From Odiellus spinosus (taxonomy: Eukaryota > Arthropoda > Arachnida > Opiliones > Phalangiidae), in assembly GCA_963920705.1 (NCBI GenBank), contig OY987226.1, forward strand, positions 17,176,501 through 17,240,500: a DNA stretch of 64,000 nt. Direction: 5' to 3'. Of the stretch, positions 24,401 through 59,453 are shown piece by piece; the stretch's first letter is position 1, and each line of letters opens with the position of its first letter. The notes under the pieces are model-generated. The model searched no databases. It saw only the letters and a list, made by a program, of their open reading frames with translations, and was not told the origin of the DNA. Position numbers and translations under genes: made by a program.

Positions 24401-27400
24401 CCATAATAAGACACCATAATGTGTCACCGTGTGTTACTTGCAGATATTATATCAAATAGTTCAGTAGTTAAACCTTACTATCATTTAAATTATTAAAGGA
24501 ATGATAATTATTTTCCCACTAACCCAATAGATTTGTTATTTCCACGATATCATTTGACGGAATAATATTTTAACGTAAACCATTCCATTAAAAATCGTAG
24601 TAATTGTAATATAAATTGCGTATCAAACATCTCTCACACCATTTCATGATTTCAATTTGAAAATATTACGAATGTAATTTAAAATGAACATTTGCCCCGA
24701 ATACACGATCGACATCCCATAAAATCAAACTGAGAATCGTTTTCCCTAGGTTTCATGCCTCAAATAATCAAAAATGCCTCGAATTAAATGGAAGGGTTAA
24801 TCTTACCCAGCATGGACTGGAGCCCTGGAGATGTCGATGTTATCAGTAGCGTAATTTGATGAAAATCCCGATTCGTAATTGTGGGCGTGTTGCGGCGATA
24901 AGTGCTCTTCTTCTTCAGTCAAAGGAGCTAAGAATAATAAAAACAATACATTAAGTTAATATTTTTCCATATTAAATGGGCTAGGGAATTCAAAATAAAA
25001 TGTTACATTCTAATTATTTCACAGCTATTATATAAAGCCAACCTTCCTGTTCGGAATTCAGAGATCTATTTACTATATTACAAGTTTTAAACCTAGTCAA
25101 AACTTCCGGTTTCGTAGGAATCTCGCGGAGTTAAATTCGGCAGTCTCCTAATGACGTCACAATCGCGTGACGCCAACCCGATAGCGCTTGCCACTAAAGT
25201 AATTTTTAATTCTTAGCGCACGAGTCGCGACATTACGAAGGTATCAAACTCTTATTTATTAGGCCTAGCTGTCATTGACAAATTATTCATGTTGTATGTT
25301 TCCCAATGATATATCATAAGAACTTCGCCCCAAATTAATGGTTTAATTTTTCTAATTGCAAAAAGAATAGTTTTCTTCGGTGCCGTTACGATTTTCTTTA
25401 CATAAATGATAGGCCTTATTTATTAGTTTTATATTAGCATTGAAAACCCGTTATTTACAGGTTGAATTTGATGAATCGAAGAATGGTAATTATAAGAAGG
25501 GAATATTACGTACCAATATCGTCTCTGCCATGATCGTGAGCTCGTTCGTCTTTGGTGACGTCAATGGGTAAGGAATCGTCACCGAGTGATTTGACTTCGT
25601 CAGCGCTTAGATATCGGAATGACTGGTCACCCATTATTGTATCTTCACCTGAAGCGTACAATTCCAACCGTCATCATCAATTTAAAACTAATTCTTCGTG
25701 ACGTTAAATTTGAATTAATTTAAATCAATCCTAAATTTAAACTAATTAAACACCAAATAACACGGAGCCGCAATCACAATTCATTAGCAAGAACAAAAGT
25801 AAAATTCAACACATCGATAAGTAGATATAGACAAAAGTTAATTAAAAAACTCGCGCGTTAATTAAAAATGGAGTATTAAAAATTTGAATCAATCTATTAA
25901 TCTTTGAAAACGATTTAGTTCGAACCTAATGTTAAATTAGTTCCACGCTTCGTGTTATCGTTCTTACTTTAATTATTAAAATTAAAACCGTTTTTTCTTA
26001 ATTAGCGTAGAAAAGGCTAAACACTGACCCAAGTATATTCAGCCAATCAGATTTAGAGGATTTTTAGCACGCGCAAAGCTACGCTTACAAATATATCTAT
26101 AATATCTTTCATTGAGGGTGCCCTTAGAGGAAAAGGGTTTGACTTATTTTGGTTAAGTTTTCAACACTTAAAACTGATTGGTTGAGTATAAATCACCTCG
26201 AAAACATAGCGCTTGAAGAGACCATAGTAATATCCAAGCCCGAATAGAGAAAGTTTAACCCGATAGATAAATAATTGAACGACAAACGTGTACGTGAACA
26301 AAAGTGTCACGTGGTGATAATGTTGTAGTTAGCAAAACGTAGGCGCACAAGTTATTCATTCAATGCGTATAACCAGGGAATGGTAGACGTAAGAGGGAAC
26401 GTTTGGGTAAACCTTAGGGTCTGCTGCCACGATGTCAGCACTAACTCGGCAGAATGCTAGTTTTTCTAGCCCTTATTGGTGAAAAATGGCCCCGCCAATA
26501 AAAAAGATAACGCTGACATCATGGAACTCTAAAGTTCCCTCTTACGTAAATGAGTCCTTGGTATAAGCAACACACGTTTGACAACAAAAACGTTTTTGCG
26601 GATTTTGACGTACGCGTTCATAGCTAGATCATACTCAGTACGTGACTCTATGGGTGGTATTGCTCGAAAAACTCCTAACTTAAGAGTCCCGTATTTGGTC
26701 CGGTTCTGAAGATACTGGGTTTGAGCGGTACTATTTTGAGTTACAAATTCGGACAAACAAAGCCGACTCGTTATAAATCAGTACAAAATATTTCGAAGAT
26801 GAAAATCGAGATCCTATTTAATTGCAATAGAAAAAACGAGCCTTCGCGGTATGTATACGGTTAATAGTTGATGAGCTTTAGTGAACTATTGTATCTCCGG
26901 AACCGGACCAGATAGATACTCGGCTCCTTGGAGTGTTTTTGATCAGTACCTTCCACAAAGTCTCTTCTTTCTTACTTAGGGTACAGTGTCACCCTGTACA
27001 TCGATTAATTTCTCCTATTCGGGCTAAATACATAATGGACAACTGGAAACCGTGTACGGCTACGTCTAAGTTTTCGCTTACTACAAATTACAATTTTATA
27101 TATTTCCTACAAGTTAGAAGTACGCGTTTTCAGTCGAATACGGGTAACACTCGATTATGTAATATAAATAAAACAACAAATAATAAATAAAAAAATCTAA
27201 AAACATGCTTCGTGTGTTATTTCTTTGTCTCAAAAGTGTGAAATTCACTCGTTTATATTGGATAGGATAGACAAAGGGGGGAAAAAACGGACGCGAAGTG
27301 ATAACGAATCAATGACAAAGAGTTAGTAATTGTAACTGAGAAAAAAGACCAAAATTGTACAGAGCGGCGTTAAGAAAAAAAAATACACCAGGATAAATAG

Positions 27401-30400
27401 AGTATAACAAGAATATTTCCAATTCACGCGATTATTCGTCTACTACAAAATTGAAGAAACTAAGCTAGGCCTCTGTCCCCTAAAGTGACGCTGTCACCAT
27501 TTTTTTCAAAGGTCTATGGTTCAATGTTTTTGGTTTTTCATCAGAGTGAAGTGCTTATTTGTTGACTCTTCCTCTAAAAGTATGAGGAATGTTTTTGCGC
27601 AGTGAAACATTCAGAAAGTGTTTCAGAATTATACATTTTGGCATTTAATTAAAATTAAAACCCTTGACTAATCAAAAGACGTCCCACTTTTAGCATAAAA
27701 AAAAACTACAGCGAAACAGTCTTAAAAACGCTCTAAATCTCGTTCTTAATTTTTTACACGCGCACAATCGCGAGTATAACAGCTAAAGGTGGAGAGTCTT
27801 TTGACAGGTCGCAAGTTCTTCTTTTAATTGGATGACAAAATCTGAATCTTTTCCAATTTTATATGTAATTCATATTCATTTCCCGAATGTTTTAATTCGC
27901 GAACATACCTTATTTTTAACAGTAGAATCGATAAAAATCTCTTCACCCTCCCTTTAAAAAACTATTTTCGCTACACCTTCAGGTTGACCACGGTTACTTT
28001 ATCGTAGTACTATCAACAATAGACATCTATATATTAATAAAGATGAATTACATCACTTGGCGTTTATAAGCGTACTCTAACGGAAAACCGAGGTAAAGGT
28101 AGAACTAACAAAACCAAGTGCATAACTGCTATGGATGGGGAATAGGCAGACGCGCACGTGGTTTTACTAGTTCATACATTTACCTGTTTTCCGTTAGAGG
28201 ACGTTTATGAACGCCAGGTTTTGTCATTCATCTTTAACTATTAAGATTGATGTACATTGTTAATAGCACTAGGTCTCACTGTCAAAACCTGATTACTAAT
28301 AAAATTGGAAAGTTACGAACTTCGACTTAAGAAACGGAAATATTGGTACTCTTTTCGATAGACATTTTAGGGTGTATTTTTCTTTTATAACAGAGTTATG
28401 AGATTAAAGATAAAAGATTCGAGATAAACCCAAAATGAAAAAGAGAGTGAGAGTGAGAGTGAGAGAAAGAGTGAAGGAGATAAAAGCGAAAAAAAAAAAA
28501 AGCTAGCGATGCAGCGGTGCTATCGGATAATATTAATCTTCTAGCTGTTAATTTAAATGTCTTATCGTGTTAATCGGTAAACTTGTCGGATATTGTATAT
28601 GTTTATATATTGTTTTAAGTTGTTGCGGTTGACTTACGGTGGGTCTGCAAGTGGCCCTCGTAATATGGTAGATAGACATGGGTCGCGTGAGTGGGTTTCC
28701 CAAACAGAGCCGATTCCTCGAAGTCCTCACCTACACCGCAACGGTACAGGGCACTCAATCAGCCATTTTAAACTGCCACATCATATCAGATATCACGTAT
28801 TTCCCAAATTTCCACTTTAAACCCGGTCGGGGACAGCTAAATTTGTTTGTGTGGTTAATAAGCTCAGCGTTTTAAACATTGCTTATTGTTAATTTAGAAA
28901 TATAAGTTAACGCGGATGAGACCCTCGAACCGGTATTAAATTATTAACACTGAAATTACGAACAACGAAAATTTAGAACTATTTGGCTTCAAGACTCGAG
29001 AGAGTTTTGATAGTTTTTGAAGTTTCGTGTGTTTAGGTGAATTTCGAAATAAACGTTTCATTTCAGCGCTTATACGCTGTTTCTATAACCTTGTTTAATT
29101 CCGTGACTTTTCCATGACCTCTAAGGTCAACTATAAAATACCCTGATGCTATTCTGAACTAATGGGTCAATTTGAAAATATTCCGATACTATTCTAATAT
29201 TGGGTCAGTTTTAAAATACCCTGGTGTTATTCTGACCTATTGGGTCAATTTTAAAATACTCTGAGGTTATTCCGACCAATTGGGTTAAAAATATAATGAT
29301 GCGATTCTGACCTATTGGGTCAATTTTTAAATACTCTGTTGCGATTTTGACCTATCGAGTCAATTTTAATACACCTTGATACTATTCTGACATATTAATC
29401 ATTTTAAAATACGCTGGTGTTATTCTTTTATCTAATTAACCTCCAAATACCCTGATTCAATTTTAAAATTTAATCCTAAATGTTTCTTTTAATACTAAAC
29501 AAATGAATCAAATCTCTAGCCATGAATCTTTCATTGCCCTTTGAGATAAATTTTAAAGCTGGACAGTTCTTTTAATAAAAGGCGTTACATGCAAATCTCT
29601 AGCTCACAAATCTAACAAATCAAATCTGTATTTGGAATAATGAAAATAATTTATAAGGGAGAGTCTTCTAAAGTTTAAAATCTTCTCGAAATTTGGAAGA
29701 ACCTCTTAAAAACTTGATCCCGCTCTGTGAAAACGGACATACGTGTCTATCTAACTTGAACTCGCTAACGGTGATTCAAAGCTCGGTTAATAATTGCGGA
29801 GCGTAGATTTCTGTTAGAGTAGCGGACGTGATTTAAATTGAGTTAAATTTAGAAACGAAATGAAAAGATCCTACACTGTTTCCGCGAGTATCGTGGCTCG
29901 CGACTAAATAGTACCGTAACAATTTTATCAAACAAAGAATACGAAGTGGAAAGGACAAATAAAATGGTTCAAATAAATAATAGTGCTCAAAAATAAAAAT
30001 AAAATTGAGAAAAAGAGAAAATGGAAAATAGAGGGATTATTGTTTCGAGATGCGGAGTTCGGAAAAAAAATAAGAATTTTTTGTTTCCCCTAAAAATAGG
30101 CCGAAACCACCAGTTACTTAGTAGGCCTGCATTATATTAGCATTTTCATCACAAATTGGACTATACTCTGTTCATTAAATTCAATTAATATAAATTCGAT
30201 TCGATTAATAACCTAATTTTAACTCATTCAAAATACGGGGTTAAGCCTTGTCTTAAAGGAATGGTTCGTGATAAAAATGTTTTTCACGATAAATTAAGAA
30301 AAAGTTCAATAGAAGTTTTAGAAATCTAAATAACGCGTACGTGTACGCGTAGCTACTCTTAAAGTACACATCTGCCTCGATTCGGGTCTTGTCAAAGTGA

Positions 30401-33400
30401 TTTTGCACCAAGATCGCGAATTCAATAAATACAAATATATATAGTATATTTAGAATTTTTTAATCATAAACCATTCCTTTAAAATGATGCGAACAAATTA
30501 TAATTTTCTAAGCGCAATTAAAGGGAGAATGCAGCCCAACAATAAGTGATTTTCTTATGTGTATTCCTTATCGTTTAAATAGGCCTAATCCACTAGTAAA
30601 AAATATTACGATAGAATACAATTTGTGAATTTCTTGGAAAATAGACTTAATATGATCCGCGTTGAATTTGAAATCTTGCCATTATCCGCGAATCAAGTGA
30701 GAAGCGCGCTATATTCTAGGCTTAAGAGGAGCATGCTTTCACTAGTTAAATACAAGATATTCAACTCATTAAGCCTACTAATTAAGAGGAAGTTAGCGGG
30801 AGGGCGCAGAAGAAAATGAAGTGGTTTTTAGTGATTCTGTTTCTAAAAATAAGACACGCTTGCGTCGGAAAATATTCAGGAATTGTACAAAAAATCGGAA
30901 ACCTGATTTTGACATAGAACTAAAAGAAGAATCCATGACTAATCAATGACTAATCAATGACTAATCAATGGACGCAATACCGTTGGCTTAATAAAATCCC
31001 CCGACACGTGCTGCGGTCCACTTTAATGTTCACGCGCACAATCACGCGTTCAACAGCGCGTGTCGTGGATATGGTTTGAAGCCATAGGCGAGGAGTATTT
31101 GATTGGTCATAGGTTATTCTTTGAATCGAATGGCAAAATCTGACTCTTTTCCTATTTTTGCACAATTTAGAGTCATTTTTGTCCGAATGTTTAAATATAA
31201 GAACCACTCTTAGTTTAAATAGTAAAATTGTTAAAAAACATTTCATTATCTTCTTCATCCTACCATTAAAAATTGATATCTATCTTAATATTGGTTTGTA
31301 ATATTTTTTACCTTTAAATGGTAAGTAATCTACGACAGAAAATCAATCGTATTTGGTTGCATTCTCCCTTTAAATGATCTATATATGTCTGCTCAATATT
31401 TGTAGAGTTTTCAACGCGTACAAAGTTATGATCCCTCTTATCTACAAGCAATTATATTCTGTGATAAGAGAAGGCTCATAAGAATTAAATTGTACCACAA
31501 GTAAAGCATGATTTACCTGTGATTGTACTCATTGAAAACTCCTTAACTGATTGCGAGTACATGAGACGATCAAAGTGTGTAGCCTCATGCGTGCACTAAT
31601 TCGTAATGCGCTAGTTAAATATTTTATGTAAAGTACTCTAGATGGGGGATTTGGATCTATATCCAGTGCGCATTCGCGTTGCGTGGCTAAATAGTGCGCG
31701 ATGCAATCTAAAAATGCATGAACAGAATTCTAGTCTAATTTATAATAATAGATTATTTAAATCTAACCAAAAGAAAATGAGAAAAAATCCTGATTTTTGT
31801 TAGTAAAAAATAATAAACATTTATTGTTTAAAAACTAGTTACAAAAACTAGTACTAAACAATAACTAAAACTAGTTTAATACTATGAAACTATAAAGGGG
31901 TTCTCTCACTATTAAATAGAATAGCTCGATAATGTATTTAAGTAATGGATATGGTAGAGTCACGGTATTAGTGTGATATAATTGATTTTTAAATTATCTT
32001 AATATTAAAAAATGATTCATAATTGAAATGGTTAAAGATATTATTAACAGTTAATCATAATTAATAGTCAATCATGATTATTAATTATTATTAGTCAATC
32101 ATGATTGTTAGTTATTATTAGTCAATCATTACTAATAATTATAGTAATCATGATATAGTCAATCACTACTACTTAATTATAGTAAATCATGATATAGTCA
32201 ATCATGATATAGTTAACCACGATTAATAAATATTAATAAGGGTTAGTAATAATTAATCAAGATTAACATTTAATAACAGTTAATCATAATTAATCATAAT
32301 GATATACTTATTAGACAAAGGATATTAATTTGAAAATTCGCTAAATTTAATTTTAGTAGTGAGAGAACCCTGAGACTACCTGAAGGTAAAGTGCATCCAT
32401 TGACTCGCTTAGAAATAATAGAGAGAAAGGCAGGGGTGATGACGTCAATGCGCGTACCTCTTATTCCCCGCCTTTCGCTTCATTAACTCTAAACCAGTCA
32501 GTAGACGACAATAAACCAATTTCTAGGAATGTTAAAAAGTAATAAATTCGTTAAAAAAAATAAAAACTTAAAAAAACTGGATTAAACTTAATAAAATCCG
32601 ATTAAATATTCTAAAAATTAACGTAACTTCGCGCCTAATTAAAAGTTAAATTGATTAAGTATTAAACGTTTCCGAAAGCGGGTCGTCTCCTGCGTCTTAA
32701 ACTATAATATCTAAAGCGGTGATCGAAGGTGAAAAATGGAATCAAGATTACTGTACCTCCTTCGTCCTCGGAATCGCTCATGAAGGTCTCTTGCATCGTC
32801 TCTGGCGCCACCACGCGGTATTTTTCTTCCGTGATGGTCGTCGTGGTCGTCGTCACGATCGTCTCCGTCACTACTTTCAAAGTTTCAACCACAGATATGT
32901 AACCCAGACGCTGGGCGATAGACAGAGCCGTTTGTCCTTGCTGAGATTAAACAACAAAAAAAAGGGGGAGCAACGAAATTAACTTATTATACTCAAACCA
33001 AGAAGTTAAATTATTTACGGGAACAGTTTTTCTACTGGATTAAAAGCAATGGAGTAAAAAAGCAGACAAATTTTTCTGCTTTTCTTTTAAATCCATTCCT
33101 TCAGTCAAGGGATAAAGATAGTTTATTTGGAAATTTAGGTTAAAGTTACATGTATGCTATGGTTAAAGTTATCTGGAATTTGAGGTTAAAATTTACAGGG
33201 AAATTGAGGTTAAAGTTACCCGGGAATTGAGGTTAAAAGTTACCGGGAAAGTGAGGTTAAAGTTTCCCGGAAGTTGGGGTTAAAAGAGTATTATTTGACT
33301 AGACTATAGAGTCTAGACTATAATTTAACTATGAAATAATATGAATCTGGGTTCTTACGTTGGTGGTGGCGTTGGGCGAAGCTCTGTGTTCGAGGAGGAG

Positions 33401-36400
33401 GTTAACGATGAGGGTGTGTCCCTGCTGGGCGGCTTGATGCAAAGGCGTGTAACCATGAGAATTGGTCGAGTTGACGTCGGCACCGTGTTGCAGCAAGAAA
33501 CGGATCATATTCAATTGTCCAAAATGGCAAGCCACGTGTAAAGGCGTGTAGCCGGCCTTAGTTGGCGGGTCCGTCTCGGCGCTGTTCTTTACCAAGATGG
33601 CCGCCACATTAACGCGATCTTCTTGCGCGCACAAATGCAGAGGAGTCAAACCATTCTGAAATTCGGCAAATGGATCAAGTCATTTAGAATTTAATATATA
33701 TACGGCGCGTATTCTATTGGTCAAAATGAGAAACCATAAGTTGACTCGACACTTACCTTAGCTTTAGCGTTGACATCGGCGTGGTGTTCAATAAGTAGGG
33801 TAGTGATATCGGTATGTCCTTCTTGGGCAGCCAAATGGAGCGGGGTGAATCCGGCCTTGGACTCGGCGTTGGCTTTGGCGCCGTACTCTAGCAAAGTGGT
33901 AGCGATGTCCATTTGGTTCTTCTTTGCCGAAATGTGAAGGGGAGTGTACCCGTTCTTGGCCACAGCGTGTGGTGAGGCTCCTTTATCCAATAGCAAGAGG
34001 GCCACGTTCACGTGATCGTAGTGGGCCGCCACATGCAATGGTGTGACGCCATTCTGATTGTGACAAAGAGGAAAAAAAATGAGACAAACATGATTTCAGA
34101 TTTATGGCATTTGGGCCAACTGAAATTACTTCCCTCGCCAAATGAAAAATGGTTAAATTATTCAACATCTCACCTTTCCTTGGGCATCAACGGGCGCGTC
34201 TTTTTGCAATAGAAGTCTGGCCACTTTAATATTGCCATATTTGGCGGCCAAATGCAAAGGAGTGAATCCTTTCTGGAAGTACGCAAATGGGGAAAAACAA
34301 TTATTATAAATGATGTTTTTAGATTCGTTTCAAGTCTCAAGCTAGTAATTAGTTACCTTGGTTGTGGCTGTAAGAGAAGCTCCGTGATCCAAGAGAACGG
34401 AAGCGACTTCTTCTTGTCCTTCTTTGGCGGCGATATGCAAGGCCGTGTACATATCCTTGGTAGTGGCGTCCACGGCCGCTCCATGTTGAAGTAATAATCC
34501 AACGATATCAACGTTCCCTAATCGAGCCGCGATGTGCAGGGGAGTTTGTTCTTCCTAAGTACATTGTACAAATGTCACGAACTTTTAACCCTTGACCCTG
34601 AAGAAGTACTTGTAGTGTAAAAATCTATATAATTACCCTGGCTCTCGCATCGACATGAGCTCCGTTTCTCAACAAGATTCGGATGATGTCAGTTTGGTTG
34701 GCACGGGCAGCCAAGTGAAGGGGGGTTTCGCCCCTGACTGTGGGTACATCCGGGTTGGCCCCGTGTTGAATCAAAAATATGACGATATTCATGCAGCCCA
34801 TGAATGAGGCCACGTGCAAAGGAGTAAGTCCAGACTAAACAGACAAAATTGCAGTGATAAGTAACGTTAACTTAACCCTAACTATCGGAAGTCTTCTAAA
34901 AAAAATGTTCCTTACTTCGGTAGTCGCTTCGATAGACGCTCCGTGCTTGAGGAGTAATTCAATGACCTTGATACGATTCTTCTTGCAGGCAATGTGTAAT
35001 GGAGTAAATCCATTCAGAGCCCGAGCATTTGGGTCGGCCTTACGATCCAGGAGTAATTTTGCCACGCGTACGTGACCGCAGTGAGCGGCAACGTGTAACG
35101 CCGTCAGATAATCCTAAACGGGCGATGTCATTCGCGTTAAAAAGGCAGATCTAGTTTATCCCTTTGGTGCATCTTATTTAGATTACTTACAACTGTCACG
35201 TCATCAACTGGAGCTTTGTGGTAAAGCAAAATTCTGGCGCTGTCAACGTGATCGCCTTGCGAAGCCATGTGTAAAGGTGCTAAACCGTTCTATTTTGGGG
35301 AGTCAAATTTCGTATTCAAATTTACATTTTCCAAATTTAATTAAAGCGTTATTATGCTATCAATTACTTTAGTTTTAGCGGTTATAGGCGCCCCTCTTTC
35401 CAATAGCAGATCAACAACTTGATCGTGGCCGCTACGAGCAGCACAGTGAAGTGGTGTAAGGCCGTCCTGAAATTCAGTTTCGAAATCATTATTTTCAACA
35501 AAATGCATTAGATTCCTACAAAATTTAGTTTCCATGAAATTTCCCAGATATTTCAGGTGCACCTTGTTATTCTCTAAGGTTTAAAATCAGAAAGGTGCAG
35601 TAGAAATTATTAGTGTCCCAGATTTTTTATGATTTTTCTCAACATTCTAATTTCCTGGTAATTCCAGAATGTCTAGGTTTCTAACTACTAATAACTCGAA
35701 TAAAATTTGATGGCTTTTCCAACTGGAAATTGCTTAAATGTAAGATAAGCCTTTCTCAGCAAACAATTGTGTATCAAATTTCTGAGAAACGCTTATGTAA
35801 ATAAACTGTTTAAGACGTGTCACCCCTATCGCTAAACGAGTTTAAAAACTTCTACTCAGTGGAAAACGATGCAATTTAATAAGTTAATAAGTACTGACCC
35901 TTGTGGAAGCGTCAATCTTTGCATTCTTCTGAACCAGGAGGTTTACCATGTTTGATTTGCCCCATTTGGCTGCGACATGTAATGGTGTAATTTGGTGCTG
36001 CAAGCAAATTGACGATTACGTATTGAAAATTGAGAATTACTGAGAATCATTGACTGCGGCGCGTATTGTTTACCTTGGCGGCAAAGTTGCAATCGGCGCC
36101 CTTTTCCAAGAGTATGGTGGCGATATTTTCGTTTCCGTAGTGAGCGGCGATGTGTAGGGGCGTGAATCCGCTCTTGGAAGTGACGTCGGGGTTATGGTCA
36201 TTTTGCAGGAGGAGGGCGGCCGCCTTGCAGTCGTCTTTCTTGGCGGCGATGTGGAGCGCGGGCAGTCGTACCCTTCCTTTGGCGTCGTTCTCGAGGAGGA
36301 CGGCGACCACTTTGTCGTGTCCTTGTTGGAGGGCGACGGCCAGCGGCGTGAAGCCGTCTTCCGTCGCCAGGCTCTGATTAGCCCCGTTGGCCAGCAGGAA

Positions 36401-37427
36401 TCGAACCACGGTATCGTGGTTCTCTTGAGCCGCCATGTACAGCGGAGTGAAGCCGTTCTGCGATTGGACGTTAACGTTAGCGCCATTCTGCACAAGGATC
36501 TTGACGACTTCTTCTTGGCCGGCCAACGAAGCGATGTGCAGGGCCGTGTTGCCCTTCTTGGTCGCCGCATTCACGTTCGCTCCTCGTTTCAACAATTCAC
36601 TTACGACGGCCACGTGGCCTTCTTTCGATGCCAAATGTAGAGCGTTCAACCCATTCTGTGATCACGGAAGCGATTGAAATTTAGTTTATCAATAATCATC
36701 CCAGTAGGAAACGTCGCGACAAAATCTCACTACCTATACATCATTTAACTAAATAACCCCACTTAAATTATGACCAGCCTTATGTCTATGTACGCGTTAA
36801 AATAGTCAAAACCAACCCAACAAATTTATCGAAAAATACTTCCAAAGTACGTCGCATATATGTGGGAAACGTGTTTTAAATGAACTAAAACTAGATATAT
36901 ATTTATATTGATTTTTTGCTCTATTTTTTGAGAAGAAAATCTTCGTTTTAGGATTTAGATGCATTCATCCTTTAAGATAAGGGATTGTATATGTCATGAC
37001 TCACTTCACTAACATATATTACTCTACCTCTTCAAGATAAGGAGCAATTTCTACGACAACTCAACTTGATAAAAAAATACAAATTGTAAGATCTCATTTA
37101 TAACAAACGGCCTATAATTATGCGTTTTAAAAGTTAAAATATTTTAAAATGTATATGCTAAAAGCACTTACGGCGTTGCTGGTATTTATGTCGATGCTCC
37201 CTTTCAAGTATTCGAGTACTTTGTCCAAATTGCCAGCTCTGGCTGCTCGCAGAAAACTCGCGTTGCCATCAGTCTAATTGAGAGAAAGAAAAGAAAAACA
37301 TATTCATTAGAATTAAAAATTATACAAACTAAAATTGCCTAATTATTATACTTAATAAAACAAGAAACAACCCAATTATATCAACCCAATTATAAGCCAA
37401 TAACTTTGTCAGTTGAATATTTAATTG

Positions 37428-37459
<32 letters not shown>

Positions 37460-40400
37460 CGAAACAAAAATTCTACAAAAGGTAACGAAAATTGGGTGTA
37501 AAAATTTACGAAAATTTTGGATGTGAACATCCCTAAACAAATACTTCCTACAAGAAATTTGGAAATTTACATTTGAACCCACATTATGTCAAACCTAGTA
37601 TATTATTTGGGTCGTGAACTGTGAGGTTCTTCAACAAGCTAAGTATCTTAATCAAAATCTAGGGAGTTCCTATTTTCAAACTGAAAACTCAACATACCCA
37701 ACCGTGAAAGGGTCCCGATTGAAGAACTGATTGATTACAGGTATATAATCTTACCGTATATGACTTTTCTACACCAAGGGGTAGTTGAGAATCCTTTGGT
37801 TTTTCAACAACAATTGGTGGGTTCGCAATGACCGTTGGCTTTTCAAAAACAAGGGGTGGTTTCCTAATGACCATTGGATTTTCAACTGCCAGAGATGTTG
37901 GGGATCCATTACCGAGTCCATTTTGTAAATGGTACAATACCAATAGGACGCAAACGCAATTAAGTAACACGAAAAAGGTCACAGTCATCCAAGGACCTTG
38001 ACCAGCTAACATAAAATTTAAAACCCATTCCAAGACGATTAAAATCGCGTCTATGAACATGATATATCGTGAAAAATATTGATTCAATCAGAGCGCTTAA
38101 CTTTAAAAGTACTAAACAGTACAATAAAATTTGTAGTAGATATTGTTCCAATTTAGATTAAAATCGAAATGGTATCTTATGTTCATATTTAAGAACTCTT
38201 CAATTATAAGAACCGCACGACCTAACGCGGCCCGGTCTTTAATAATACTAAATTTGAGTTAAAACGTTATTAATAAAAATACTCTAGAACGCGATGTCGA
38301 GGAATGGGCGATACAAAAACAACCAGCCGTTTTAACAAAACACCAAGGATGAACTGAAAAAGAAACGCACCTGATCGAGAATAGTTTTTATTTTATTTAA
38401 ACTAAAAGATTAGCATCTGAAAAGATTACAATTATCGTGGGATGATATCTAATTATACCAAAACCGATACGCTTTTCATTTTTTCGCAAACAGTATACAA
38501 GAACTATGGCTATTTTAAATATATTTCAACTTATATTTCTCCACGGGTTTGTTACGAATCATAATGGATATTACCAACCGCGTTGGTGTAAAGATACAAA
38601 TTAGTCTATCTACCCAACAACAATCCCGAGTGATTACAAAAGGTCTGGGTCGCGGAATTATCTGTAAATGATGTAATATATAACTACGTAAATTTAGAGT
38701 TTCTGTACGATAATGAGATATTAAATTAGATCATCGATTTTATTAATCTTATCTTTCGATACACGTGTATTTAATTTAACAAAGTATGTATAATGTTCAG
38801 TAATAAATTATGATATATGATTATGTACTTGGCTAGCTATTCAAAAGAGAGTTAACATAACGTGGAAAGCCGAGGAGGATTGATACACAATGTAAAATCT
38901 CATAAAGAATAATGTAGTCGGTGTCAACTATATACCTTTGAACAACAATATATTTTCAATGTCGATAGCAACAAATCGACCCAAATGTTTCGCATGAGTT
39001 TACGCGAACTCTTTTGTATAAATAGGTTAAGCCATGGTAGAGGTTAAAGTGTTTGGCTAAAGGACCACCGTAATAAGAATTTGAATCATGTTTAAAATCT
39101 TGTAAAATGTCTCGAGTTGCTGAAAGAATTCCAATAAAATCTAAAGCTTATTTGTGCTACAATAAATTTCCAAATTTACAGATTAAAATAATAATTTTTA
39201 AAGAAAATAGACCTCTAAATTTTCAACAAAAATAGAAAACTAGTTATTTTAACAATTATGGTTTCAATGTTTACACGTTCATCTTAATTAAATAATACAT
39301 TAATTCCTGTATTTCAATAGTTTGTTTACTTATTTGATAAATAGGTCAAATGAAATTGCGATCTACATAACGTTCAGGTTAAAATAAAGCCAAGGGCAAA
39401 AACTCAGTTGACGAATTGTTTACTAGCCTTAGTATCGATTGAATAATTAATATTAGGGGTTAATTACTTGTAATTTAGTTAACTGTTCATTTCTCTAAAT
39501 GTTTTGGGGAGGTTTCTACAAACATAACGTTAATGTTAACTTAAATTCGTTTTTCGTTTGATATACTAACCTTAAAGTTACCTAATATCGTTGAATAATT
39601 AACATTAGGATTTAATTACCTAAAGTTTAGACAATTTAATTACTGAAATTGTTCATGCTTTGGGAAGTCTAAAATAATTATATAATTTCAAAGTTGTAAA
39701 AGTAGGCCTAATGAAAGTAAAATGCGACAGAAATGACAAAATATACTTATCCTACATAAATAGCCTCAAAAATCGTAAATAAAATGCGGAAAAAAATAGA
39801 TTGCCTATCAATAGATCTGTCAGCACCCTTCAGGGTATGAAAAAATGAAAAGTCGGTCTCTTAGATCGTGACTCCAGACAGCGAAAGCGATCGAGTCGGC
39901 CAGGCTGGCGGGCGAGGCTTATCGATTTGAAATCAGAAAAGGCCAAGTCCCGAGCTAACCACACCCTGCTAGGCCTTTTCAAAAACCAAACCATATTACC
40001 ACTATATTCTCAAGACACTAGCCAACCTTCGAAGTGAACGAAATTCCCACGGAAAGAGCCTTCTTCCAAAAACAAATAAGCAGACAACTAAGACTGAGAC
40101 GGAACATACTTACTTGTACTTGCATGATTTGCTAATACGTAAAGCCTACCTTCTACAACATATTGGTCACGTGACATAATTACAGGGACTTGTCAACCGA
40201 TGGGACAAATGCCCCCGCTCTATTTTTACTCTTGATTTTCTGGCCCCCAAACCTTTTTCAATGTCACAGCCTTTGTCAATAAGCAGGTGGGATGGGGTTG
40301 ACCCCCTGTCCAATAAACTTTAAATGCCCTAGGCTAACTAAGTTCTAGCTTAAGGCCTCACCCTGAAATGTCCGAAAGCCATTAATTGGGGCCTGAAATA

Positions 40401-42008
40401 ACTCTCATTAGGGCCTCAATAGCTATATAAAAATTCGGCTATGGTTCGAACACTTGAAAGAATAGCGAATACATGTACGTTTACATCGTGCCTAATGCGG
40501 AAGAGACGATAGATACAAGATTACAAGTACACGTAGGCGTTAGTAAAGAGACTTCTTAGGCTCTGTAAACAGAGAGATCCGTAAAAATACACGCTTCCTT
40601 ACTGCCATAATCAAATTAGTAATTTTCTTTAAAAATATTGGGTTACACCCAAAAACTGATAGTTTTAAAGCATGACCAATAATCTTTTTAAGTAATTAAA
40701 TTTGCGAGTTGGAGTCTTAGAGTTTAAAGGGAAAAAACATCAATAGCGTTAAAATTGATTTTCTTTTAAGGCTGGATTTTCCAAAATTTATATTTTAGTA
40801 TCTTCGCAGTAATTAAATAAAACATGACTTAATCGTGGTATCTTAGGATGAGAATTTAGCTAAAGTTTCGGTCTAACAGCTAATTTTTACCGAGCAATTT
40901 ACGCAGCGACAGACAATGTTTTCCGCCAGAGAAACAAAGCTGTTTTTCTGGCAGAAAATTGGTAAGTTCGCAAAATTTAATTCTTTGTATATGCTTTATG
41001 TAAGGTGAAAATTACCATACGTTAGGTCGCGAGTTAGGGTTACGATGCGAGGGAACGATTTTCACTGATTATTTAGATCAATTTTAAAGACTGTACCACT
41101 ATTTACGAAGCCAGAAAATAACATCTACGTCACAGTATAATAATGCAAGATTTAAGTTGATACTGAGAAGCAAGGTGGGGCTAATTTATTTGTAGCCTCA
41201 TTTCTAAACCATATTCTTAGAATATACGAACGGTAAACCCTTCCCATTGGACGAAAAACTCTAGAATTTCAAGCCAAGAAGATACCGAAAGTGAAGACAG
41301 CTTTATATGGTCGATATTAATAAAAGCTTGTACCAGAAAACTAATATTCCCCTCCTAAATACGCATTGGTTGTACCGTTATTAAACTGAATCCAAAATTG
41401 GTTTTGAAATTTCATATCAAAAATGGATGATTGTTTAATTTGAAGCCAATATGAAACCATTTCTTCCCCGCCTTGAATATGGTAGAAATTACAAACCCCT
41501 TGCCTCACCACGAGATCCCCCCCCCCCCGCCAAGTGCGTAGGCAGAGTTTTCTTTTAATCCCCCGATCGATAGCCAGATTTATAAATAGCACGTCACCAT
41601 CCTACTACACCGTATTTCGAGAGGAAAACGTCCAAAAACCAACGCACCCGCTAAGCCTAAAACGCCAATTTTCACGGCGCCATCCGTCTATATCTCTACA
41701 GCTAAATAGAAAGCAATTTAAATCCCATGGAGTATACAGTCATAATCAAAACAAAACATAAAAAATTTCAAATGAAAATGAAGAGTCGCGTATTCGATAT
41801 AGAAATGGAGAACCTTTGGTTGTCATGACAACCAAACCAAAACTCTCCATTGACAGTTGCGTAAAAAATACATATTAGGCCTAACGAATCCGCTGTGGGA
41901 ATAGAAGCCGGTTTAAGACCGTCAAGGGCAAGAAAAGAACTGCGTGTTTTTAAGCCTTTGAAATGAAGGAATTACCTGCGGTTGCTTAGGTTCCTCTTCG
42001 GCGACCAT
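364..42008 (-). CDS. Ank2: Ankyrin (24 ANK repeats, ZU5-A, ZU5-B, UPA, death domain); 26 exons, 3' end outside window
   Basis: Ankyrins are cytosolic adaptors that tie membrane proteins (ion channels, exchangers, L1-family adhesion proteins) to the spectrin skeleton. The repeats bind membrane partners, ZU5-A binds beta-spectrin, and the ZU5-ZU5-UPA unit forms a supramodule. The 26 exons listed separately join in frame to about 1575 codons: residues 1-11 N-terminus, about 12-798 twenty-four repeats, 799-913 linker, 914-1068 ZU5-A, 1069-1212 ZU5-B, 1213-1374 UPA, about 1395-1490 death domain, then an acidic/serine-rich tail. Landmarks include [40 protein letters not shown] and [13 protein letters not shown]. 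The last exon ends on a donor, so the C-terminus, perhaps a giant tail as in Ank2/UNC-44, is missing. The symbol reflects family type; orthology to one vertebrate paralogue is not implied. Confidence 0.95.
2172..2735. repeat. 25-base minisatellite, about 22 copies
   Basis: Units built on CCGAGTTAATTTTAACTAA, preceded by a block of related units with CCGTGTTAATTTTAATGAA. The two variants are not mixed but lie in separate blocks. Confidence 0.95.
2862..3437. repeat. 24-base minisatellite, about 24 copies
   Basis: Units CCGTGTTAATTTTAACTA plus TTTCAA or TATTAA. Because 24 is a multiple of three, it produces a long plus-strand frame of LILTISTV-type octapeptides. Variants occur in three consecutive blocks. 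Confidence 0.95.
3672..3772 (-). CDS. Ank2: Ankyrin exon 25 (tail, [14 protein letters not shown])
   Basis: 101 bases, phase 1 in, phase 0 out. The join reads [18 protein letters not shown], then [21 protein letters not shown] took donor AAG|GTGCGA at 3671. A second in-frame donor 15 bases on (AAA|GTAATT, exon end at 3657) would add VRTTK. The acceptor has a good pyrimidine tract. Confidence 0.8.
3824..4100. repeat. 24-base minisatellite in intron 24
   Basis: About 11 units of AAGTAATTAGATAAATATTT plus AAAC, decaying into shorter AAGTAATTAAAT units up to about 4200. It fills most of the 451-base intron between exons 24 and 25 and lies 24 bases from exon 24 at its decayed end. Confidence 0.93.
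4224..4352 (-). CDS. Ank2: Ankyrin exon 24 (end of death domain)
   Basis: 129 bases, phase 1 in, phase 1 out. It encodes [20 protein letters not shown], the last death-domain helices, then [20 protein letters not shown]. Donor CTG|GTAAGA. Confidence 0.92.
4712..4997 (-). CDS. Ank2: Ankyrin exon 23 (death domain, main part)
   Basis: 286 bases, phase 0 in, phase 1 out. After [19 protein letters not shown] comes [37 protein letters not shown] and [12 protein letters not shown]. This is a death-domain six-helix pattern ending just before the last helix. Confidence 0.94.
5069..5320 (-). CDS. Ank2: Ankyrin exon 22 (UPA, second part)
   Basis: 84 codons, phase 0 at both ends. It encodes [34 protein letters not shown] and [10 protein letters not shown]. 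The preceding intron is 74 bases. Its acceptor (GGTAAAG|GTA) is poor in pyrimidines, but it is the only site that continues the conserved DVE-VLE join in frame. Confidence 0.93.
5395..5623 (-). CDS. Ank2: Ankyrin exon 21 (UPA, first part)
   Basis: 229 bases, phase 2 in, phase 0 out. It encodes [52 protein letters not shown] and AKSRDVE before GTAAGT. This is the start of UPA, the domain shared by UNC5, PIDD and ankyrins. Confidence 0.96.
6237..6333 (-). CDS. Ank2: Ankyrin exon 20 (ZU5-B to UPA junction)
   Basis: 97 bases, phase 1 in, phase 2 out. It encodes [20 protein letters not shown] and [12 protein letters not shown]. It follows a 5 kb intron. Confidence 0.95.
7221..7592. mobile_element. 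Palindromic miniature element, family B, copy 1
   Basis: The arms AACAGCGCTTGCAATG.. and ..CATTACAAGCGCTGTT face each other around a core with AATAGGCCGGTGTTTGA. It shares arms and core with 48554-48969. The outer left arm end is missing here, so the copy is truncated. Confidence 0.7.
8463..8708. mobile_element. Inverted-repeat element, family E, copy 1
   Basis: It begins TTGTTCACACTAG and ends CTAGTGTGAACGTGGCTT, with ACCGATTTGAAACGG-type inner arms. It is related to elements at 46936 and 52340. Confidence 0.6.
8983..9132 (+). CDS. Small open frame, 49 residues, unrecognised
   Basis: A complete frame from ATG to TAA on the strand opposite ankyrin, inside the 5 kb intron 19. It begins [20 protein letters not shown] and is rich in K, R and E. 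Nothing around it supports expression, and it may be a fragment of a decayed element. Confidence 0.12.
   Translation: MTDEEEIIKARKKLRWKLVRNGTKKEEARLSLIDHKSAFLLCETCFVYI
10527..10595. repeat. Short foldback with GGCAGCACGCGCGAAGC arm
   Basis: GGCAGCACGCGCGAAGC and CTTTGCACGCGCTGCC face each other over about 35 bases. A related GTACGCGCTGCCAAC stretch is at about 21637. Confidence 0.5.
11326..11530 (-). CDS. Ank2: Ankyrin exon 19 (ZU5-B)
   Basis: 205 bases, phase 0 in, phase 1 out. It encodes [33 protein letters not shown] and [12 protein letters not shown] chose the donor ACAG|GTATTA because the join then reads [13 protein letters not shown], the family consensus. A second in-frame donor 15 bases further on (TCAG|GTTTGT, exon end at 11311) would insert five residues. 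Confidence 0.94.
15717..15880. repeat. 27-base minisatellite, about 5 copies
   Basis: Units TCTAAAATTAAGACCGGCCG plus GCGTCTG with small changes. The unit length is a multiple of three, giving a KIKTGRRLS peptide frame that is an artefact. Confidence 0.85.
17143..17425. mobile_element. Palindromic miniature element, family A, copy 1
   Basis: Ends CTAGGACTATTATCAATT and CATTGTTAATAGTCCTAG. Inner arms AAGCGTCCTCTAGCGG and GATAGAGGACGCTT. It folds almost end to end and has no coding capacity. Confidence 0.8.
18395..18530. mobile_element. Decayed foldback related to family F
   Basis: Contains ATGACGTCAT near the centre and ATGGTCCGATTTTGAC at one side, like the better element at 22197-22345. 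Confidence 0.4.
18716..18991 (-). CDS. Ank2: Candidate intron-retained tail after exon 18
   Basis: Reading straight through the exon 18 donor adds 91 sense codons and then TGA at 18716-18718. The tail starts VNNHC, has an asparagine run from an AAC microsatellite, then a serine/asparagine-rich part, and finally a basic part ([17 protein letters not shown]) and [12 protein letters not shown]. Such a product would end after ZU5-A and lack ZU5-B, UPA and the death domain. The length of the open frame in AT-rich DNA and the coding-like composition are suggestive. It may still be a chance frame. Confidence 0.3.
18992..19203 (-). CDS. Ank2: Ankyrin exon 18 (ZU5-A end, ZU5-B start)
   Basis: 212 bases, phase 1 in, phase 0 out. 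It encodes [37 protein letters not shown] and [10 protein letters not shown], then CAG|GTAAAC. The reading frame stays open for 91 more codons past this donor (see the next entry). Confidence 0.95.
19752..19912 (-). CDS. Ank2: Ankyrin exon 17 (ZU5-A, second part)
   Basis: 161 bases, phase 2 in, phase 1 out. It encodes [20 protein letters not shown] and [13 protein letters not shown], both diagnostic for the spectrin-binding ZU5 of ankyrins. Confidence 0.96.
19990..20512. repeat. 23-base minisatellite in intron 16, about 21 copies
   Basis: Units GTCTCGAATTGCCTTAAAGA plus AAG. The left part has GGTCTCG and the right part CGTCTCG, with a sharp change around 20190. The array takes up most of the 658-base intron between the two ZU5-A exons. 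Confidence 0.95.
20571..20795 (-). CDS. Ank2: Ankyrin exon 16 (ZU5-A, first part)
   Basis: 225 bases, phase 2 in, phase 2 out. It encodes [35 protein letters not shown] and GPAGAKFLG. This is the N-terminal half of the spectrin-binding ZU5 domain. Confidence 0.96.
22197..22345. mobile_element. Palindromic miniature element, family F
   Basis: AAATCGGTTCATAAATAAGA..AGCTAC faces GTAGCTTTCTTATTTATGG..CCGATTT, with a TGACGTCA site near the middle. About 149 bases. Confidence 0.7.
22930..23115. repeat. Dispersed repeat, family G, copy 1
   Basis: Shares GTCTCGTGATTGGTCGGAGG-like and CTTCTTCACCCTCCCTT segments, in the same order, with 27750-27960 and 31029-31262. Confidence 0.5.
23486..23770. mobile_element. 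Diverged relative of family A foldback
   Basis: Arms GCGTCGCCCAGCGGCTAAAC and GTTTGCCCCTGGACGACGAT, with paired AACAAAACCTCGCC/GATTTTGTTAGT segments. It is more diverged than the four clear family A copies. Confidence 0.45.
23790..24094. mobile_element. Palindromic miniature element, family A, copy 2
   Basis: Inner arms GATAAAGATGAATAACAAAA and TTTTATTATTCATCTT. The right end is ATTGTTAATAGTCCTAG. The left end is less clear. Confidence 0.7.
24807..24927 (-). CDS. Ank2: Ankyrin exon 15 (linker end, leads into ZU5-A)
   Basis: 121 bases, phase 1 in, phase 2 out. It reads [20 protein letters not shown] and ends [12 protein letters not shown], which corresponds to the DNVNLVSSPIHSG segment just before ZU5-A in vertebrate ankyrins. 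Confidence 0.9.
25514..25648 (-). CDS. Ank2: Ankyrin exon 14 (linker, GDDSLP motif)
   Basis: 135 bases, phase 1 in and phase 1 out. It reads [19 protein letters not shown] followed by [18 protein letters not shown]. The GED..GD...YL...E.K.LGDDSLP pattern is the conserved linker between the repeats and ZU5-A. Confidence 0.93.
27750..27960. repeat. Dispersed repeat, family G, copy 2
   Basis: Shares CGCGCACAATCGCGAGTATA-like start, a GACAAAATCTGAATCTTTTC middle and a CTTCACCCTCCCTTTAAAAA end with 31029-31262. Confidence 0.55.
28004..28272. mobile_element. Palindromic miniature element, family A, copy 3
   Basis: Ends TAGTACTATCAACAAT and ATTGTTAATAGCACTA. Inner arms GCGTACTCTAACGGAAAACC and TTTTCCGTTAGAGGACG. 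It lies about 370 bases from the candidate cassette exon. Confidence 0.75.
28638..28730 (-). CDS. Ank2: Candidate 93-base cassette exon between linker exons 13 and 14
   Basis: Acceptor GTGTAG and strong donor ACC|GTAAGT enclose 93 bases that enter and leave in phase 1, so inclusion keeps the frame. It would read ...[18 protein letters not shown]...[16 protein letters not shown].... The inserted peptide begins GED, like constitutive exon 14. The polypyrimidine tract is weak and I recognise no homologue, so this is a prediction from phase and splice sites only. Confidence 0.4.
29095..29460. repeat. Degenerate array of about 40-base units
   Basis: Around eight diverged units of the form ATTCTGACCTATTGGGTCAA followed by TTTTAAAATACCCTGRTG. 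An old array judging by divergence. Confidence 0.8.
30521..31376. mobile_element. Possible family D element with nested family G repeat
   Basis: Left end TTAAAGGGAGAATGCAGCCC and right end GGTTGCATTCTCCCTTTAA are inverted, as in 50031-50479. The interior contains the third family G copy (31029-31262). The internal arms do not match well, so the two ends may belong to different insertions. Confidence 0.45.
32035..32295. repeat. AT-rich array built on AGTCAATCATGAT
   Basis: Irregular repeats of AATAGTCAATCATGATTATT and ATAGTCAATCATGATATAG with many small palindromes. Within intron 13, close to exon 13. Confidence 0.7.
32757..32940 (-). CDS. Ank2: Ankyrin exon 13 (ANK repeat 24 and start of linker)
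   Basis: Starts in phase 0 with [20 protein letters not shown], the last repeat. It then has a threonine run ([15 protein letters not shown]) and the acidic stretch MSDSEDEG, and ends in phase 1 at GAG|GTACAG. The order repeat 24, T-rich segment, acidic segment is that of ankyrins. Confidence 0.94.
33130..33285. repeat. Short array of about 26-base units in intron 12
   Basis: About six diverged units of GAGGTTAAAGTTACCCGGGA. It fills part of the 418-base intron between exons 12 and 13. Confidence 0.75.
33359..33655 (-). CDS. Ank2: Ankyrin exon 12 (ANK repeats 21-23)
   Basis: 99 codons, [18 protein letters not shown] to SPNATTN, phase 0 at both ends. It contains [18 protein letters not shown]. 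Donor AAC|GTAAGA. Confidence 0.95.
33757..34053 (-). CDS. Ank2: Ankyrin exon 11 (ANK repeats 18-20)
   Basis: 99 codons, [18 protein letters not shown] to DVNAKAK, phase 0 at both ends. It contains [20 protein letters not shown], close to invariant in ankyrins. Confidence 0.95.
34174..34272 (-). CDS. Ank2: Ankyrin exon 10 (ANK repeat 17)
   Basis: 33 codons, [18 protein letters not shown] to VDAQGK, phase 0 at both ends, donor AAG|GTGAGA. Confidence 0.93.
34357..34554 (-). CDS. Ank2: Ankyrin exon 9 (ANK repeats 15-16)
   Basis: 66 codons, [18 protein letters not shown] to SLTATTK, phase 0 at both ends. Confidence 0.93.
34637..34834 (-). CDS. Ank2: Ankyrin exon 8 (ANK repeats 13-14)
   Basis: 66 codons, [18 protein letters not shown] to HVDARAR, phase 0 at both ends. 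It contains [18 protein letters not shown]. Flanking introns are only 81 and 82 bases. Confidence 0.93.
34916..35113 (-). CDS. Ank2: Ankyrin exon 7 (ANK repeats 11-12)
   Basis: 66 codons, [18 protein letters not shown] to SIEATTE, phase 0 at both ends. It contains [17 protein letters not shown], one of the most conserved repeats in the family. Confidence 0.94.
35191..35289 (-). CDS. Ank2: Ankyrin exon 6 (ANK repeat 10)
   Basis: 33 codons, [18 protein letters not shown] to PVDDVTV, phase 0 at both ends, strong donor GTT|GTAAGT. The PVDDVT ending is typical of this repeat in ankyrins. Confidence 0.93.
35368..35466 (-). CDS. Ank2: Ankyrin exon 5 (ANK repeat 9)
   Basis: 33 codons, [18 protein letters not shown] to ITAKTK, phase 0 at both ends. 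The wording is very close to the ninth repeat of other ankyrins. Confidence 0.93.
35899..35997 (-). CDS. Ank2: Ankyrin exon 4 (ANK repeat 8)
   Basis: 33 codons, [18 protein letters not shown] to DASTR, phase 0 at both ends. Donor AGG|GTCAGT, acceptor TTGCAG. It follows a 76-base intron and precedes a 432-base intron. Confidence 0.92.
36074..36655 (-). CDS. Ank2: Ankyrin exon 3 (ANK repeats 2-7 in one exon)
   Basis: 194 codons, phase 0 at both ends, from [13 protein letters not shown] to GADCNFAAK before GTAAAC. It encodes six repeats, two of them 31 residues long (the [12 protein letters not shown] pair), as in other ankyrins. It is the longest coding exon here and clearly richer in G/C at third positions than the neighbouring exons, with long open shadow frames on both strands as a result. 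Other repeats in this gene sit in exons of one to three repeats. Confidence 0.95.
37172..37273 (-). CDS. Ank2: Ankyrin exon 2 (ANK repeat 1)
   Basis: 34 codons, phase 0 at both ends, beginning [19 protein letters not shown] and ending in NTSNA before GTAAGT. This is the conserved first repeat of ankyrins. It is the common acceptor exon for exon 1 and for candidate exon 1b. Confidence 0.92.
37755..38060 (-). CDS. Ank2: Candidate alternative first exon 1b: N-terminal membrane anchor for ankyrin
   Basis: A 102-codon open frame starts at an ATG (an in-frame TGA lies ten codons upstream) and ends on a strong phase-0 donor (ACG|GTAAGA). This can splice directly to exon 2, giving ...EKSYT-TDGNASF. 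Residues 2-20 are hydrophobic but carry D4 and E11. Residues 25-45 form a clear transmembrane segment ([20 protein letters not shown]). Two hydrophobic helices would leave both ends cytosolic, which suits a cytosolic repeat domain. Residues 62-99 hold two copies of a 13-residue repeat ([26 protein letters not shown]) plus a decayed third. I know of no full-length ankyrin with such a leader; the vertebrate small ANK1 form has an N-terminal anchor but lacks the repeats. It could also be an unrelated small gene or a chance frame. Confidence 0.5.
41815..41836. repeat. Perfect 22-base palindrome
   Basis: Each half reads TTTGGTTGTCA. It is enclosed by a second inverted pair (ATGGAGA and TCTCCAT), so the whole can form a stem in DNA or RNA. 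It lies about 140 bases inside intron 1. Confidence 0.8.
41976..42008 (-). CDS. Ank2: Ankyrin exon 1 (start exon, [11 protein letters not shown])
   Basis: Eleven codons from ATG to a phase-0 donor (CAG|GTAATT). The peptide is short, acidic and glutamine/proline-containing, like the short leaders that precede repeat 1 in other ankyrins. Exon 2 begins in phase 0, so the join reads ...KQPQ-TDGNASF. The start was chosen because it is the only ATG in this frame before the donor. A 4.7 kb intron follows. Confidence 0.75.
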
Positions 42009-43340
42009 GACAACAGCCTAGTTATCATTACCCGTTTAATAATAAACAAAAGACAACTTCGCGGCGACTTTGTAAATAATTTTAGGAACTAGGCGATATA
42101 TATTTTTAAAAATTTTAGGCCTTTTTTCGCGCCGAATTTTCGTTTTATAAATAAATTTAACGTTAATTCGCGCTTAAACTACCTACTAAAACTACCGCGT
42201 TTTGATAGCTTCAAGATGCGGCCAATACGTAGCCGTCGAGAATTCTCCAAGTCCAACTATCAAATTTTGGTTCGAGACAATTTGGATTTTAAAACTCTCT
42301 GCGGGGCTGTATTTTTTGGAGATGAGAATCGGAGAACGGTCGCGTTCTTCGGTGTACTACGAATGTATGGCCGGTTTTGGTTTCTACCCATCGCCTGGCA
42401 GCTAGACGGCATTATCGATTCTTTAGGCCTATTTTGGCCAAAGTGGCGCAGGCGCTATGAAGGGGCAATGCGGCGCGCGCTGAACTGTGATATTAAAGGG
42501 CCCGTTGGCCTCGATGCTTTGGCGCCATTGTTCCGGGCTACGATGTACGTTCAGTTACGAGTTCTACATACGTTATAAAGAAGCCTTATATCTAAATGAT
42601 ACGCTTAAAGGTGATACCGGCATCGTCTAAGTTCGTATACGTTGATTTTTCCGAATGGTTTACGAGCCTAGTACATGCGGAGAGAAAATTCAATTGGGGA
42701 GGGGTTCCTGGGAATATTAAGGCCTAGCTTCCCACCCTATGCTGCAGTGCTTATGTAAGTTACTGTAGTGCCTGGTTCGTCTCAAATCTAAAGTACTCGA
42801 AATGTTGCTTTTGGAATAATAGGATATACTCGGAAATAGCTCCGAGTTTAATGAATTCTGGCCTGGAAGGGGTTTGACATGTATAGGTGTAACCTAACCT
42901 AGCTCTTGTTCAGAGTCGGACCATATTTGTTCGTGTTAAGATAAGTAATTAAGTGGGAACGGGGATAATGGGTTAAAAGGGTGTATAAACGACGTAACAC
43001 ATGAAGGTTTCAATGTTTCCCAATAATTACGCGAATAATTTAATGAAAATAAACTAAGAATCAAATCAAATCAAGCTAATTAATAATTAATGAAAGATGG
43101 AACAAGTGGCGTAATTACGTAAATTTAACATCAGCGAATGTACGCATCTGTTTGTGTTAATTAATGACAATGAATAAATTTGAATTGATAATGATCTTAT
43201 TACAAAACTGTCATTTTAGCCTGACTAGATTCTATTGCCAAAAACAAACTACAAAACAGATGTAAATAGATATTACTGCTTACGTACACCACCCCCATTT
43301 CTCGAAAAGAAAAAATATTTCACGAATCATTGATTGTATA
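42009..43340. other. Region immediately upstream of ankyrin exon 1
   Basis: Probable 5' untranslated region and promoter area. The stretch 42190-42560 is richer in G/C and CpG than the surroundings and produces a 120-codon plus-strand frame that looks accidental. No clear initiator or other motif can be fixed by eye. Confidence 0.4.
42096..42105 (-). promoter_or_regulatory. TATA-like stretch upstream of exon 1
   Basis: An alternating TA run lies about 90 bases upstream of the exon 1 ATG in an otherwise AT-rich area, so specificity is poor. The sequence beyond it (42190-42560) is noticeably richer in CpG than its surroundings, as promoters often are. Confidence 0.2.
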
Positions 43341-44749: not shown

Positions 44750-45075
44750 ATTAACGCGGTTAATTTTTAATTTCAATGCCGTTAATTTTTAATTTCAATG
44801 CCGTTAATTTTTAATTTCAATGCCGTTAATTTTTAATTTCAATGCCGTTAATTTTTAATTTCAATGCCGTTAATTTTTAATTTCAATGCCGTTAATTTTT
44901 AATTTCAATGCCGTTAATTTTTAATTTCAATGCCGTTAATTTTTAATTTCAATGCCGTTAATTTTTAATTTCAATGCCGTTAGTTTTTAATTTCAATGCC
45001 GTTAATTTTTAATTGCAATGCCGTTAATTTTTATTTTCTATATTTATCAACAATTTTTAATTTCAATGCCGTTAA
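44750..45075. repeat. 22-base minisatellite, about 14 copies
   Basis: Units GCCGTTAATTTTTAATTTCA plus AT. It merges directly into the following 26-base array. Confidence 0.95.
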
Positions 45076-45089
45076 TTTTGTTTTTAATT

Positions 45090-59422: not shown

Positions 59423-59453
<31 letters not shown>

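Follow-up and report, generated by a model that had tools for sequence, protein, structure and literature searches.

Can an ankyrin carry a membrane anchor of its own, supplied by an alternative first exon? Ankyrins are viewed as peripheral adaptors, brought to membranes by partner proteins or by lipid modification, and the locus described here raises this question because an open frame with two hydrophobic segments lies a short distance before the first ankyrin-repeat exon of an ankyrin gene. The gene occupies the minus strand of the window (the whole stretch of DNA analyzed, 64 kb in length) and was located by tblastn with a fly ankyrin-2 sequence as bait; matching segments run from 37267 down to 5078, and the frame at 4997-4698 (minus strand) reads as a death-domain-like exon. 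From its likeness to the fly bait the gene looks like an ankyrin of the invertebrate type, and we take the ZU5/UPA and death-domain names to apply to its body. The features on which the argument turns are collected in Table 1.

Table 1. Features of the ankyrin locus and of the candidate leader exon, in window coordinates.
Feature	Position	Strand	Description	Basis
Ankyrin gene body within the window	4698..37273	-	Ankyrin repeats, ZU5/UPA region (names as assumed in the text), death-domain-like exon	tblastn and reading frames
Ankyrin exon 2	37172..37273	-	102 bases, first ankyrin repeat, phase-0 acceptor	tblastn and exon boundaries
Donor site	37749..37754	-	GTAAGA, phase 0	Sequence and score
Candidate alternative first coding exon (leader)	37755..38060	-	102 codons, coding for two hydrophobic segments followed by a P/V-rich linker	Translation, hydropathy, simulations, single genome match, AlphaFold2
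Tandem repeat	37796..37885	-	39-base unit, 2.3 copies, coding for a 13-residue P/V-rich unit	Tandem Repeats Finder
Region in which any internal promoter or 5' leader would be expected	38061..38660	-	Single motif matches	Motif scan
Probable canonical first coding exon	41976..42008	-	ATG at 42008, 11 residues, phase-0 donor CAG/gtaatt	Sequence alone

The acceptor of exon 2, at 37274/37273, reads ...CAATTAG/ACTGATGGC. Upstream, the short exon beginning at ATG 42008 is probably the canonical first coding exon of the gene, judging by its sequence; its donor scores 5.31 on a consensus matrix. Because the usual first exon probably lies there, the candidate frame falls inside intron 1, which would be 4.7 kb long if this assignment is correct. 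The animal's own genome (443,074,358 bases in 286 contigs) was searched with one repeat exon of the gene, which matched itself at 100% and other places at 47% identity or less among the matches listed, and a second copy of the gene was rejected on these grounds. The same exon had 235 matches in the genome, on contigs C6, C8, C14, C17, and C18 among others, many of them in extended reading frames, the longest of those listed having 1855 codons; they point to a large family of apparently intron-poor ankyrin-repeat genes.

The candidate frame is open from stop to stop between 38087 and 37689 on the minus strand. Read from its ATG at 38060 it has 123 codons before it stops at 37689, or 102 codons (ending at 37755) with splicing at the donor, and with its own start codon and an upstream stop it has no need of exon 1. 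The 102 codons end in ...KSYT at the donor ACG/GTAAGA, after a P/V-rich tail holding the 13-residue repeat, whose 39-base units agree at 82% of positions (Tandem Repeats Finder). On the same matrix this donor scores 5.09, which exceeds the 4.71 at most reached by the best sites lying no more than 30 bases from the ends of 14 ankyrin homology segments (some of these are not true donors). The gap from donor to exon 2 acceptor is 481 bases, both junctions are in phase 0, and when leader and exon 2 were joined in silico the reading frame continued unbroken across the junction. An earlier sequence-only reading of this DNA had described the 102-codon frame with its upstream stop, ATG, two hydrophobic segments and 13-residue P/V repeat, together with a phase-0 consensus donor at this distance before a phase-0 acceptor; translation, hydropathy, Tandem Repeats Finder, and the joined frame bear out both descriptions.

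In a 19-residue window, the Kyte-Doolittle hydropathy of the leader reaches 2.04 at residues 1-19 and 2.46 at residues 24-42. AlphaFold2, run on the single sequence with no alignment, placed helices at residues 2-18 and 23-49 (block pLDDT of 76-85) followed by disorder after residue 49, with a mean pLDDT of 64.5 and a pTM of 0.35 for the whole model, which we read as evidence of predicted helix propensity only. The hydrophobic moment peaks in the first segment, at 0.31. By arithmetic, D4, E11, and N15 of that segment are on the same side of the helix, so rather than crossing the membrane alone it may rest at the membrane surface or be packed in a hairpin.

We consider it somewhat better supported than its rivals, with a probability of roughly 0.55, that the leader is an alternative first exon producing a full-length ankyrin anchored in a membrane by its own N-terminus. 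Against this stands a possible but doubtful explanation, that the leader is a chance open frame in intron 1, lengthened by the 39-base tandem repeat and ending by luck at a donor-like site. Introns of 4.7 kb were simulated under three models, 6000 each, with tandem repeats lying outside the models. An ATG frame of at least 102 codons appeared in 309, 263, and 217 of the 6000 introns under the respective models, so the length of the leader alone is unremarkable, as the chance explanation would have it. The combination of features is far rarer: a frame with an in-frame donor of at least 5.09 at or beyond codon 102 occurred in 1 of 18,000 introns, and one that also had two hydrophobic segments in 0 of 18,000, with thresholds chosen post hoc, after the leader frame was known. 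Looser thresholds (at least 85 codons, a donor of at least 4, two segments) gave 1 case in 16,000 and 0 in 16,000, that is, 1 in 32,000, and a smaller first run gave 0 in 800. In the real window, on both strands, the leader is the only ATG frame of at least 80 codons that meets an in-frame donor this good. For the window as a whole, counting both strands, the frequency of 1 in 18,000 translates into roughly 0.0015 expected cases, a rate at which a scan over thousands of windows would throw up a few such cases by luck. The leader frame stayed open in 85 of 20,000 dinucleotide shuffles, a result in favor of a first exon.

The tandem repeat itself fits a chance origin as well, as minisatellites are common in the window, and its two full copies differ nonsynonymously at six codons and synonymously at one. 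Purifying selection between the copies is thus not visible, though a loose linker need not show any. Long minisatellite arrays in the window lie at 45026-45888 (period 26), 61106-63353 (period about 100), and 2852-3437 (period 24).

Coding statistics for the leader are mixed and intermediate. Among simulated frames of at least 85 codons, 0.04% (of 2369) and 0.56% (of 1800) matched its codon score, as did 3.4% of non-coding windows in which stops were disregarded. The synonymous part of that score was matched by 6.7 and 16.2% of the simulated frames and by 19% of the non-coding windows (stops again disregarded); in its choice among synonymous codons the leader does not resemble an exon. When open windows from the two strands of the real sequence were ranked, the leader came third of the non-exon windows with 80 codons (54 distinct windows in all) and second of those with 100 codons (24 in all), and every listed minus-strand window that overlaps an exon scored higher. 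With 60-codon windows it was absent from the best 22 of 141 windows, and the three best listed open windows of intron 1 on the minus strand all overlap it (starts 37958, 38051, and 37889), the third of them extending 45 bases beyond the donor. That the score of the leader lies close to those of other non-coding frames again speaks for a chance frame, as does base composition, which shows no sharp change at the donor: GC is 0.25 in the adjoining 150 bases upstream, 0.40 in the leader, and 0.37 in the 150 bases past the donor, with 0.31 and 0.27 in the longer flanks. The contrast with the upstream side, taken by itself, favors an exon. The GC of the leader is also lower than that of all 16 ankyrin exon segments tested (0.44-0.58).

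Three other frames stood out in these comparisons. The open frame at 53178-53417 (plus strand) has the top score among non-exon 80-codon windows. Another, at 42261-42560 (plus strand), runs antisense to the sequence directly preceding canonical exon 1 and scores slightly above the leader, which may simply reflect GC-rich sequence. At 18719-18991 (minus strand) the frame of a ZU5 exon continues for 91 codons beyond a likely donor, CAG/GTAAAC, at 18991, through an Asn-rich stretch and a strongly basic segment. This extension is the sole non-exon window in the best 22 of 141 at 60 codons, has no genomic match other than itself at E ≤ 10, and is a possible alternative 3' end or extended exon.

In the genome, the leader protein has one match at E ≤ 0.001, the window itself, and the 1131 bases around it likewise match only themselves (in a DNA search that skips very common words). 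Since the leader is a single match at this threshold, it is no dispersed element, and a transposon or repeat origin was rejected, as leader and flanks match only themselves across the 443 Mb in these searches, though a diverged copy may exist beyond the threshold. No Pfam family was found for it at E ≤ 10, with filters that drop most matches above 0.1, and no relatives were found in viral contigs or plasmids. Five matches in the PDB, to pieces of photosystem II and cytochrome oxidase, had E values of 0.83 to 2.4 and were rejected as homologs, E values of 0.83 or worse being taken as chance. One of 77 pattern matches, a candidate relative in a prokaryote genome (L001), covers 28 residues at 53% identity through an exact shared octapeptide and was also taken as chance.

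The single match bears in addition on the idea that the leader belongs to a separate small nested gene or a retrocopy, encoding a 123-residue membrane protein and followed by a run of 30 A as the relic of a poly(A) tail. The frame does run 21 codons past the donor, and the A-run lies at 37459-37430 (minus strand), 230 bases after the stop. We nevertheless regard this origin as improbable: at E ≤ 0.001 no source gene was found in the genome; a convincing target-site duplication is lacking, as the best candidate consists of 13 AT-rich bases and contains one mismatch; AATAAA is absent between 37700 and 37275, with one ATTAAA after the A-run; and other A-runs occur in the window, at 51949-51974 and 59423-59451 (plus strand).

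It is more improbable still that the leader is part of an internal exon between exons 1 and 2, possibly a poison exon, and not a first exon. Acceptor-like sites that could serve such an exon exist at 38417, 38402, 38371, and 38354, and another was noted by eye at 38007-38006. When canonical exon 1 was joined to each of the 30 AG sites between 38660 and 37801, however, 29 of the joined frames hit a stop before the leader donor, and the sole open one (AG ending at 37839) adds 28 codons of the tail, free of hydrophobic segments; the hydrophobic part is therefore usable only from its own start. For the region that would have to supply that start with a transcript, the motif scan returned one Inr-like TCAGTT at 38357, a single short match that is no sign of function, and no TATA match between 38061 and 38660. 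Four ATGs (38562, 38479, 38416, and 38186) lie in the 600 bases preceding the leader and, like the sparse promoter motifs, count against a first-exon role. The CpG observed/expected ratio is 1.86 in the 500 bases before the leader, 1.64 in 42000-42600, and 1.23 across the whole window; because of the first and last of these values it does not single out a promoter at canonical exon 1.

With a first-exon role for the leader preferred, we infer the promoter, transcript, splicing, insertion, topology, and function of the leader form as follows. Transcription would begin within intron 1, and the RNA would contain the leader exon joined in phase to exon 2. It would encode a full-length ankyrin whose chain opens with a hydrophobic helical hairpin, followed by about 50 disordered P/V/E/K-rich residues ahead of the repeats, and the hairpin would insert into the ER or an ER-derived membrane. 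If both helices span (N-in/C-in), the ankyrin repeats would remain cytosolic, and they would likewise be cytosolic if the second helix alone spans as a reverse anchor, because the first basic residues of the leader, R66 and K67, come after that helix. The ankyrin itself would then be fixed to the membrane, and not by way of a bound channel or adhesion protein. The proposal of the sequence-only reading that this locus could make a membrane-anchored ankyrin is supported in part: geometry, phase, two-segment hydrophobicity, single copy, and rarity in simulation favor an alternative first exon, and the coding statistics are intermediate.

More tentatively, we suggest that an ankyrin with repeats, spectrin-binding region, and death domain may be an integral membrane protein by virtue of an N-terminal hairpin expressed from an intron-1 promoter, so that the skeleton could be tied to a membrane with no partner, perhaps the sarcoplasmic reticulum, in a counterpart of sAnk1 arrived at independently. 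If so, placing an anchor before the entire repeat domain would alter the sites at which the spectrin skeleton can attach, and the implication would be that ankyrins became fixed to membranes on more than one occasion, via different exon additions. Ankyrin genes with alternative first exons have been described, and so have small ankyrins anchored in membranes; to our knowledge, no known ankyrin combines these features with the complete repeat domain. A full-length ankyrin with an N-terminal membrane anchor did not appear among the listed hits of searches in the open-licence literature, outside which most subscription papers lie (animal protein databases may hold such isoforms), in agreement, within that scope, with the earlier statement that no equivalent had been described.

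Among known membrane-bound forms, sAnk1.5 carries a single membrane segment, at its N-terminus, with neither the repeats nor the spectrin-binding region, and the sAnk1-type exon sits near the 3' end of its gene. The C. elegans UNC-44 AO13 ankyrin reportedly has seven potential transmembrane domains between STEP blocks, in an alternative tail. It resembles the proposed form in being an invertebrate ankyrin isoform with potential transmembrane domains, and differs from it in that the segments here are two and N-terminal. sAnk1.5 is a 17-kDa protein made from an internal ANK1 promoter, P2, with its membrane segment in the sarcoplasmic reticulum (PMC10199891). The likeness to the vertebrate small ANK1 form drawn in the sequence-only reading agrees with that text: both cases would combine an internal promoter (here proposed) with a membrane segment and a cytosolic tail (PMC10199891). 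Unlike the segment of sAnk1.5, the leader, which lies before repeat 1, would precede the whole repeat domain, and it has two hydrophobic segments.

The arrangement of exons has a precedent in mouse Ank3, with its five alternative first exons (1a-1e); among the tissues tested, heart and skeletal muscle contained 1d, whereas brain, kidney, cerebellum, and lung did not (PMC4449188). There several first exons are joined to one exon 2 (2b) of 102 bases, the scheme proposed here; exon 2 has the same length in both genes and begins ag/TCTGA in mouse Ank3 and ag/ACTGA here (PMC4449188). Unlike the leader, with its 306 coding bases, the first exons of mouse Ank3 have coding parts of 24-114 bases, a length difference that speaks against the first-exon reading, and lie farther from exon 2b, with 21 kb for the nearest, 1e, and about 23 kb for 1d, as against 481 bases for the leader (PMC4449188). 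The words transmembrane and hydrophobic are absent from its main text (PMC4449188). Drosophila Ank2, another invertebrate ankyrin with tissue-specific isoforms, has Ank2-L and Ank2-XL forms that differ by their C-terminal tails, and the accessible part of that paper makes no mention of an N-terminal membrane segment (PMC6703079). For ankyrin-G, a membrane-anchored ankyrin-binding construct can replace the natural partners, and at the axon initial segment the anchoring of ankyrin-G is reported to outweigh partner identity (PMC5266712). In that construct the anchor sits on an artificial partner, whereas in the form proposed here it would belong to the ankyrin itself.
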